From IMG/VR virus record IMGVR_UViG_3300031785_001363, positions 1 through 48,996 of that record: a stretch of 48,996 nt of DNA, one strand, 5' to 3'. The position numbers were made by a program, and so were the translations under genes. The number at the start of each line of letters is the position of its first letter. Position 1 is the stretch's first letter. Source of the stretch: a virus. This document shows positions 2,798-22,631 of this stretch, piece by piece. The notes beneath the pieces are model-generated. The model was not told the origin of the DNA and ran no database searches. It was given only the letters and a program-made list of their open reading frames with translations.

Positions 2798-3347
2798 ATT
2801 TTACTGCCTTTTCCGCACTCATAAAGTTATCTCTATCCATGTCAGCCTGCAAAATATCTACAGATTGACCGGTGTGTTTTGCATACAAATCTGTCAGTCT
2901 ATCTTTCCAGAATTGTAATTCTTTGTATTGTATTTCAACATCACTAGCTTGTCCTGATGTTCCGCCTAGTGGTTGATGAATCATATGTCTCGAATTTGGT
3001 AACACAAATCTTTTGCCTTTTTCTCCGGCACTGGCTAAGAAACTACCCATACTTGCCGCTATGCCCATTACAATAGTATGGACTGGACATTTAATATACT
3101 GCATGGTATCATATATACTCATTCCTGCCGTTACACTACCGCCTGGACTATTAATATGAAACCTAATTGGTTTTTCTTTGTTTTGTGATTCTAAAAACAG
3201 CATTTGTGCTACAATTAAACTTGCTGAAGTCTGACTTACTTCCGTGTCTAACATGATAATTCTATCTTTTAACAATCTTGAATAAATGTCATAGCTACGT
3301 TCACCACGTGCTTCTTTTTCTATGACTACTGGAACTAAATTAGGCAT
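2763..3347 (-). CDS. clpP: ATP-dependent Clp protease proteolytic subunit
   Basis: 194 residues, the length of bacterial ClpP without a long propeptide. The catalytic triad is complete and correctly spaced: Ser99 in GIAASMGSF, His124 in MIHQPLGG and Asp173 in [11 protein letters not shown], each shifted by two from E. coli ClpP. ClpP forms a 14-subunit chamber fed by ClpA/ClpX; no Clp ATPase is seen here, so it would depend on host unfoldases. The same phage carries clpS (10766-11077) and a tmRNA (22211-22597), both of which route substrates to ClpAP/ClpXP. Confidence 0.95.
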
Positions 3348-22210: not shown

Positions 22211-22427
22211 GGAAGGATTGGCCCGTTCTGTTGCCCGGTGGAACCATACCGCGAAGTTGCCGGTTATTAAGCGGCAATAAGTTCACGATCCATAGAAAGA
22301 TCTAAAGAAGTGAACGCTTCAGGTGCAAAGTTTTCGTTTGCATTTGTAAAGGTGTTCGCGTTAACCGAGCTTACATCCGGACGACTCCACTTTCCTAATC
22401 ACTGCCTGTCGATCCTATTTCACCCCC
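22211..22427 (-). ncRNA. ssrA: tmRNA, coding (tag) piece of a permuted two-piece tmRNA
   Basis: Starts GGGGGTGAAATAGGATCGACAGG at 22427, the conserved tmRNA 5' end. The resume codon is GCA at 22339-22341, opening a 24-codon tag ANENFAPEAF...SMDRELIAA (22341-22270) closed by two TAA codons (22264-22269). The end LIAA is the hydrophobic degron read by ClpXP. No acceptor 3' end follows; instead the matching CACCTCC-ACCA lies upstream (22534-22544), the permuted order seen in alphaproteobacteria. The 3' end is uncertain; 22215-22224 can pair 8 of 10 with 22561-22570 in the acceptor piece. Confidence 0.9.
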
Positions 22428-22533
22428 ATCATAAACACACCAATAATATTTTGCAAACACTTCACGCCAACGATCTCCGTAAATCTTAATGTAAGTCTTT
22501 CGTAATTCATCAAGATCTTCCTTCGTGTGTTTA
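22428..22533 (-). other. Intervening segment of the permuted tmRNA precursor
   Basis: 106 bases between the two RNA pieces. Its ends, 22524-22533 and 22431-22440, are a perfect 10 bp inverted repeat continuing directly from the acceptor stem, so the precursor would fold as one helix of about 20 bp before processing (presumably RNase P at the 5' side). A reading frame of 65 codons (22395-22592) crosses it; the part inside the loop (DELRKTYIKIYGDRWREVF) looks protein-like. Confidence 0.7.
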
Positions 22534-22597
22534 TGGTGGAGGTGCGGGGTACCGCCCCCCGGTCCAGTCCAACTTTTGAATTGCTTCAACATCGTAC
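22534..22597 (-). ncRNA. ssrA: tmRNA, acceptor piece
   Basis: 3' end CACCTCC-A-CCA (22544-22534) pairs with GGGGGTG of the coding piece as a 7 bp acceptor stem with one G-U. T arm at 22545-22561: CGGGG stem, loop GGCGGTA, CCCCG; the loop departs from the usual TTCGAAT. The 5' end is set by the promoter (22603-22631), giving about 64 nt; the upstream gene stops at 22603, so no overlap is needed. Confidence 0.85.
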
Positions 22598-22602
22598 TAT
22601 AT

Positions 22603-22631
22603 TTATAACATATATTGTATAGTCTTGTCAA
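22603..22631 (-). promoter_or_regulatory. Promoter of the tmRNA (TTGACA-17-TTATAA)
   Basis: -35 at 22626-22631, -10 at 22603-22608, spacing 17 bp; TATAAATA (22600-22607) overlaps the -10. Predicted start about 22596. Confidence 0.7.

Follow-up and report, generated by a model that had tools for sequence, protein, structure and literature searches.

Is the spacer between the two pieces of a split phage tmRNA an inert linker, or a slot in which small phage genes are carried? The question is raised by a locus on the minus strand of an IMG/VR viral record (IMGVR_UViG_3300031785_001363), the whole 48,996 nucleotides of which are referred to here as the window. We consider it likely, with a probability of roughly 0.85, that the phage encodes a circularly permuted tmRNA at this locus and that the intervening sequence (IVS) of the gene forms an exchangeable cassette slot.

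Identity and anatomy of the tmRNA gene

ARAGORN and the Rfam models agree that the minus strand from 22600 to 22211 is a circularly permuted two-piece tmRNA gene (Table 1). Both Rfam models are matched over their full length, alpha_tmRNA at 131.6 bits (E 9e-36, gathering score 50) between 22648 and 22217, and tmRNA_permuted at 106.6 bits (E 6.5e-20, gathering score 47) between 22596 and 22267. The order on this strand is promoter, acceptor piece, IVS and coding piece, so that the 3' half of the gene precedes the 5' half, and CACCTCC-ACCA (22544-22534) pairs with GGGGGTG (22427-22421) in an acceptor stem of 7 bp that includes a G3.U70 wobble. A sequence-only reading had recognized both of these ends, the permutation, the stem between the pieces and the alphaproteobacterial type of the architecture, and had proposed the alpha_tmRNA model as a check; read on the minus strand, each of these points is borne out. 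The T-arm of the window (CGGGGGGCGGTACCCCG) has an intact T-loop, which sets the gene apart from group I intron-bearing tmRNAs, and an Rfam scan of the window returned no match to an intron family. SmpB was not found in the 48,996-base record, which may be a fragment; host SmpB may serve. These observations support reading the locus as a phage-borne permuted tmRNA in two pieces, of the type known from Alphaproteobacteria.

Table 1 Positions of the tmRNA gene, its parts and other features in the window
Feature	Position	Strand	Source
-35 element of the tmRNA promoter, TTGACA	22626-22631	minus	read from sequence
-10 element, TATAAATA, also a T4-type late-promoter motif; separated from the -35 element by 18 nt	22600-22607	minus	read from sequence
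Acceptor piece: T-arm, acceptor 3' strand and CCA, the 3' half of the tRNA-like domain (5' end at 22600 approximate)	22534-22600	minus	Rfam
CCA of the acceptor piece	22536-22534	minus	read from sequence
IVS, 106 nt, exchangeable cassette (putative) closed by a 9-bp terminal helix	22428-22533	minus	comparison with L040 and L264
Frame A through the IVS, (T)KEDLDELRKTYIKIYGDRWREVFAKYYWCVYDGGEIGSTGSD, with its stop in the coding piece	22395-22526	minus	conserved frame in relatives
Frame B, SD-preceded ATG, 31 codons (MNYERLTLRFTEIVGVKCLQNIIGVFMMGVK); rejected as a gene	22415-22510	minus	sequence
Coding (mRNA-like) piece, starting with the acceptor 5' strand GGGGGTG (3' end at 22211 approximate)	22211-22427	minus	ARAGORN, Rfam
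Tag frame ANENFAPEAFTSLDLSMDRELIAA, 24 codons and two stops	22264-22341	minus	ARAGORN
tRNA-Thr (TGT) gene	1539-1614	minus	ARAGORN, Rfam

The tag frame begins with an alanine codon and ends with a hydrophobic -AA degron before the stop. It lies, with both stops, where it had been read from the letters, and its length is indeed unusual, as had been remarked: 71 of the 101 tags read by ARAGORN in the set of permuted tmRNAs described below have 13 or 14 residues. The same 24-residue tag family is common to a clade made up of the window, L021, L030, L033, L040, L041, L165 and L173, and its codons differ synonymously at several places; a comparison of the window with L033 reveals 4 synonymous and 2 non-synonymous codons. 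This family, about 10 residues above the usual phage tag, spans tmRNAs with differing acceptor pieces and IVSs. The start of the window's tag was not found in the phage records searched.

The promoter elements of the window recur among its relatives. Of 161 permuted phage tmRNAs, 106 are preceded by a TTGACA-like hexamer 16-19 nt before TATAAn, compared with 1.5% of random 140-nt windows, and 108 by TATAAAT, compared with 3.2% of random windows. This recurrence is clear sequence evidence that the tmRNA gene has a promoter of its own, from which the acceptor piece, IVS and coding piece are predicted to be read as one transcription unit.

Pairing between the pieces and at the ends of the IVS

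The ends of the window's IVS pair over 9 bp inside the IVS (TAAACACAC/GTGTGTTTA), or over 11 bp when the CA of the CCA is counted; the helix had been foreseen correctly, but not its length, which had been given as a perfect 10 bp. The pattern behind the set of 164 tmRNAs demands perfect acceptor and T-stems, so that acceptor-stem covariation within that set would be circular. We therefore used L040 and L041, which came to light by way of a 327-residue protein encoded nearby (93 and 96% identical) and not by way of the RNA. Their acceptor stems, CGCCTCC/GGGGGCG in L040 and CGGCTCC/GGGGCCG in L041, differ from the CACCTCC/GGGGGTG of the window by compensatory changes, and the IVS helix also varies by compensation in both. 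The comparison with kin phages, to which the sequence-only reading had looked for a decision, thus finds the acceptor stem kept by compensation and the 24-codon tag kept as well.

Across 62 tmRNAs that were not selected on the 3' end of the IVS, the IVS helix is 91% paired in register, compared with 31-51% when slid by 1-3. A terminal helix of at least 8 bp closes most IVSs in the set, compared with 3 of 164 after shuffling. Register and compensation together argue strongly that the acceptor stem is prolonged by pairing between the two ends of the IVS.

The IVS as an exchangeable cassette

The comparison set holds 164 distinct permuted tmRNAs, nearly all from IMG/VR viral contigs, that were gathered by pattern scans and a neighbour search; frequencies in it follow the sequence patterns and the matches listed and are not population frequencies. 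Its IVSs range from 19 to 499 nt. The closest relative of the window among the matches listed, L040, is 90% identical in the acceptor piece and 92% in the coding piece but 26% in the IVS, whereas the distant L264 is 79% identical in the IVS and 60% in the coding piece. Because identity splits in this way between the IVS and the mature pieces, the IVS behaves as an exchangeable cassette, and the simplest reading would be that it is swapped as a unit, independently of the mature pieces. In contigs that are syntenic with the cultured phage Melnitz around the tmRNA (L004, L243, L169, L161 and L192), the IVS holds differing frames. The IVSs of L040 and L041 are short and non-coding, so the payload is dispensable. 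Two contigs each carry two different permuted tmRNAs, with IVSs of 85 and 94 nt in L206 and of 81 and 99 nt in L230.

Protein frames inside the IVSs of relatives

For a count of coding IVSs, the 164 sequences were dereplicated to 88, and an IVS was scored as filled when an ATG frame covered at least 75% of it, with 200 dinucleotide shuffles as the null. Filling frames are present in 21 of the 24 IVSs of at least 130 nt (shuffle mean 0.73, maximum 4; antisense 1), in 11 of the 22 IVSs of 90-129 nt (shuffle mean 1.73, maximum 5; antisense 5) and in 2 of the 42 IVSs shorter than 90 nt (shuffle mean 5.2). Infernal, which is independent of the pattern scan, confirms the tmRNA in eleven cargo contigs, including L113 with its 499-nt IVS.

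The dN/dS ratio is 0.05-0.06 in the frame family of L178, L254 and L240, 0.06-0.56 in the MEIIWH family, 0.12 or less where estimable among L171, L247 and L101, and 0.21 between L037 and L248, values that speak clearly for purifying selection on several multi-contig families of IVS frames. The L057 frame matches Pfam DUF6356 at 43.3 bits (cut-off 24.4), and the frames of L248 (E 7e-10) and L037 (E 2.6e-5) match phrog_16066. Several families also exist outside the IVS. MEIIWH frames lie within the IVS in eleven contigs, and in Melnitz (gene 85), L243, L169 and L185 the family stands alone as the gene directly before the tmRNA; the MDAKIF family is found inside the IVS and stand-alone before the tmRNA in L006, L007, L032, L034 and L038, and the TFKEK family inside the IVS and stand-alone near the tmRNA in L197, L168, L195 and L214. 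Many relatives evidently hold a small, same-strand predicted protein gene in the IVS, with the start predicted just within the 5' strand of the helix and the stop within or close to the 3' strand.

In cultured phages that infect Rhodobacter, Ruegeria and Mesorhizobium, the IVSs measure 93-111 nt and do not look protein-coding, so a coding IVS is not general to phage split tmRNAs. Nor are long IVSs always coding, since the 410-nt IVS of Sinorhizobium phage Phosso has no filling frame. The coding cassette seems to be confined to a marine phage group. The 117-nt IVS of L130 looks to hold a tRNA-like remnant with a T-arm.

Frames in the IVS of the window

Frame A (TKEDLDELRKTYIKIYGDRWREVFAKYYWCVYDGGE...) is homologous to frames in L264, L277, L278, L284, L199, L192, L257, L282 and L039. 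These nine sequences represent six other IVS types, among which the frame differs in length by whole codons and stays in frame, and their tags and acceptor pieces differ. Synonymous change is saturated in most comparisons and non-synonymous change is moderate; the window and L264 give a dN/dS of 0.65, with few sites for dS. The residues kept are Y-x-K-x-Y/W-G-x-R-W and WCVYD, part of the latter sitting in the IVS helix, where the RNA is also constrained. This pattern indicates that frame A is probably selected as a protein in its family.

Where frame A would start in the window is less clear. Its N-terminus in the IVS has no ATG, GTG or TTG: position 7 of the IVS is ATG in L264 and L277 and ACG (22526) in the window, a codon that maintains a C-G pair of the helix. 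Three of the seven lineages of the family (the window, L039 and the L192 group) have no start codon within the IVS. The sole in-frame ATG in the window is at 22592 in the acceptor piece, and all members without an ATG in the IVS have an in-frame ATG near -59 in that piece; it is uninformative as a start, because an ATG there is common in other tmRNAs (58 of 153). Without a canonical start in the IVS, translation of frame A in this phage is uncertain, and we regard it as possible but somewhat doubtful. The frame in the window may be translated from an unusual start (ACG 22526 or ATG 22592), or it may be a decayed copy. Its peptide has no match in Pfam or PHROGs, nor by tblastn in 50,697 phage records. 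Frame B was rejected as a real gene, since it has no conserved counterpart, and is probably due to chance.

Alternative explanations

The main competitor is an ordinary phage two-piece tmRNA with an inert spacer, in which the frame of the window would have arisen by chance and stayed open because of the helix and the conserved ends of the tmRNA. We give this explanation slightly less than even odds. It would account for the short, non-coding IVSs of the closest relatives, for the missing canonical start of frame A, for its entry into conserved tmRNA sequence at both ends and for the upstream ATG that is common in non-coding kin. It is harder to reconcile with residues that are conserved in six other IVS types through in-frame, whole-codon length differences, with the saturated synonymous and moderate non-synonymous change of most frame A comparisons, and with a frequency of coding among the long IVSs of kin that is far above that of shuffles.

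Cassettes that move between tmRNAs of different lineages at a constant site might also be selfish, homing-like mobile elements rather than resident phage genes. This is improbable: no homing endonuclease or integrase is among the payloads tested against Pfam and PHROGs, where the only hint is a sub-threshold NUMOD1 match (E 0.02, L183), the frames are as short as 27-62 codons, the payloads are mutually unrelated, and several of them are resident tmRNA neighbours in other phages. Still less credible is a functionless pseudogene or partial tmRNA, such as an integration relic. Neither SmpB nor an integrase was found with the locus, as such a relic would have it, but the full-length match to both models, the intact acceptor stem, which varies by compensation in close kin, the tag conserved with synonymous changes and the gene's own conserved promoter speak against it.

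A model for the cassette slot

In our preferred reading, an exchangeable slot within a phage-encoded tmRNA gene, the RNA would mature by analogy with known permuted tmRNAs. Host RNase P would cut before G22427, 3' processing would expose the CCA at 22534, and the two mature pieces would remain paired. Host AlaRS and SmpB would serve the phage tmRNA, which may free stalled ribosomes in infected cells by appending the 24-residue tag. As the IVS would be discarded, it should tolerate any insert that keeps the closing helix, so that small phage genes may lodge there, with either the precursor or the released IVS as the template for their translation; the cassette in the window would carry frame A of one such peptide family. 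For marine T4-like phages at large, we somewhat favour the view that the split-tmRNA spacer is a general, helix-closed cargo slot in which small phage genes would be carried, exchanged and expressed, their expression being tied to transcription and processing of the tmRNA precursor.

In the relatives, protein genes would sit inside the part of a split stable RNA that is thrown away, a concrete case that recurs with proteins unrelated to one another. Were the frames translated, a ribosome-rescue RNA and a small protein would both come from one precursor, and the choice between the two products could lie with processing. A tmRNA with its removable spacer could be readily transferred to a laboratory host.

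Relation to known systems

The sequence-only reading had supposed that a split phage tmRNA might be unknown, which is not the case. It had passed over the contents of the spacer between the pieces, where the unusual feature lies. Buchholz et al. (2022) reported that the cultured phage Melnitz has a two-piece tmRNA, and 53 of the 133 phage tmRNAs in their count were two-piece structures, 50 of them marine or aquatic (PMC9004378). The DSS3_MAL1 and Melnitz records both have a two-piece tmRNA annotated. The ten phages with a tmRNA in the 2014 tmRNA website paper all infect Mycobacterium or Bacillus (PMC4131195), and the tmRNA_permuted covariance model was added with the 2025 database (PMC11915505).

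The ssrA of Methylophilales phage Melnitz is, like that of the window, phage-encoded, permuted and of the alpha type, with its own upstream promoter and the same terminal IVS helix (TAAACAC...GTGTTTATGAT). It differs in having a tag of 14 residues (ANDNYVPVDYALAA) rather than 24, an IVS of 142 nt rather than 106 nt that holds an unannotated, SD-preceded 41-codon frame, and a glutamine riboswitch just downstream; such a riboswitch was looked for in the window and not found. The passages of the Melnitz paper that were consulted make no mention of a frame in the IVS (PMC9004378). This frame (L004) is the best experimental entry point. The Melnitz riboswitch, at 3191-3239, begins just downstream of the end of the tmRNA model match at 3183, a placement that differs from that paper's wording, which puts it within the ssrA 3' domain (PMC9004378).

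Alphaproteobacterial permuted tmRNAs (Rfam RF01849 and RF04321) share the gene order, the acceptor stem between the pieces, the CCA and the alanine tag frame. In contrast to these, neither the exact T-arm sequence of the window nor the tag start ANxNFAPEAFT was found in 84,980 GTDB species genomes, and many phage members carry frames in the IVS. A tRNA-Ala gene or a repetitive element is known from the spacer of some permuted tmRNAs (PMC11915505); these likewise illustrate that the spacer can hold extra sequence, even another gene, but they are single cases and not protein-coding; the phrase 'open reading frame' is absent from the searched text of that paper. A protein frame in the removed spacer of a stable RNA is also found in 23S rRNA IVSs encoding S23p, for example in Coxiella, although these, in the portion of the source accessible here, concern ribosomal RNA, one protein family and bacteria (PMC4990558), rather than tmRNA, many unrelated small proteins and phages. 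No description of protein-coding tmRNA IVSs was found in open-access full texts. What is apparently new is the putative protein-carrying, swappable IVS slot, the split phage tmRNA itself being already known.

Genes within IVSs have been missed because ARAGORN detects few tmRNAs with long IVSs (3 of 20 with an IVS of at least 200 nt) and because annotation tends to avoid coding sequences inside RNA genes. The permuted tmRNA of Phosso (L306, 1047-1649) is unannotated and was missed by ARAGORN. In the Ruegeria phages DSS3P8 and vB_RpoS-V10 (L303 and L304, both 845-1278), an unannotated permuted tmRNA is immediately preceded by a GOLLD RNA, and in Rhodobacter phage RcRudolph (L300, 1425-1760) a hypothetical protein is annotated across the permuted tmRNA.
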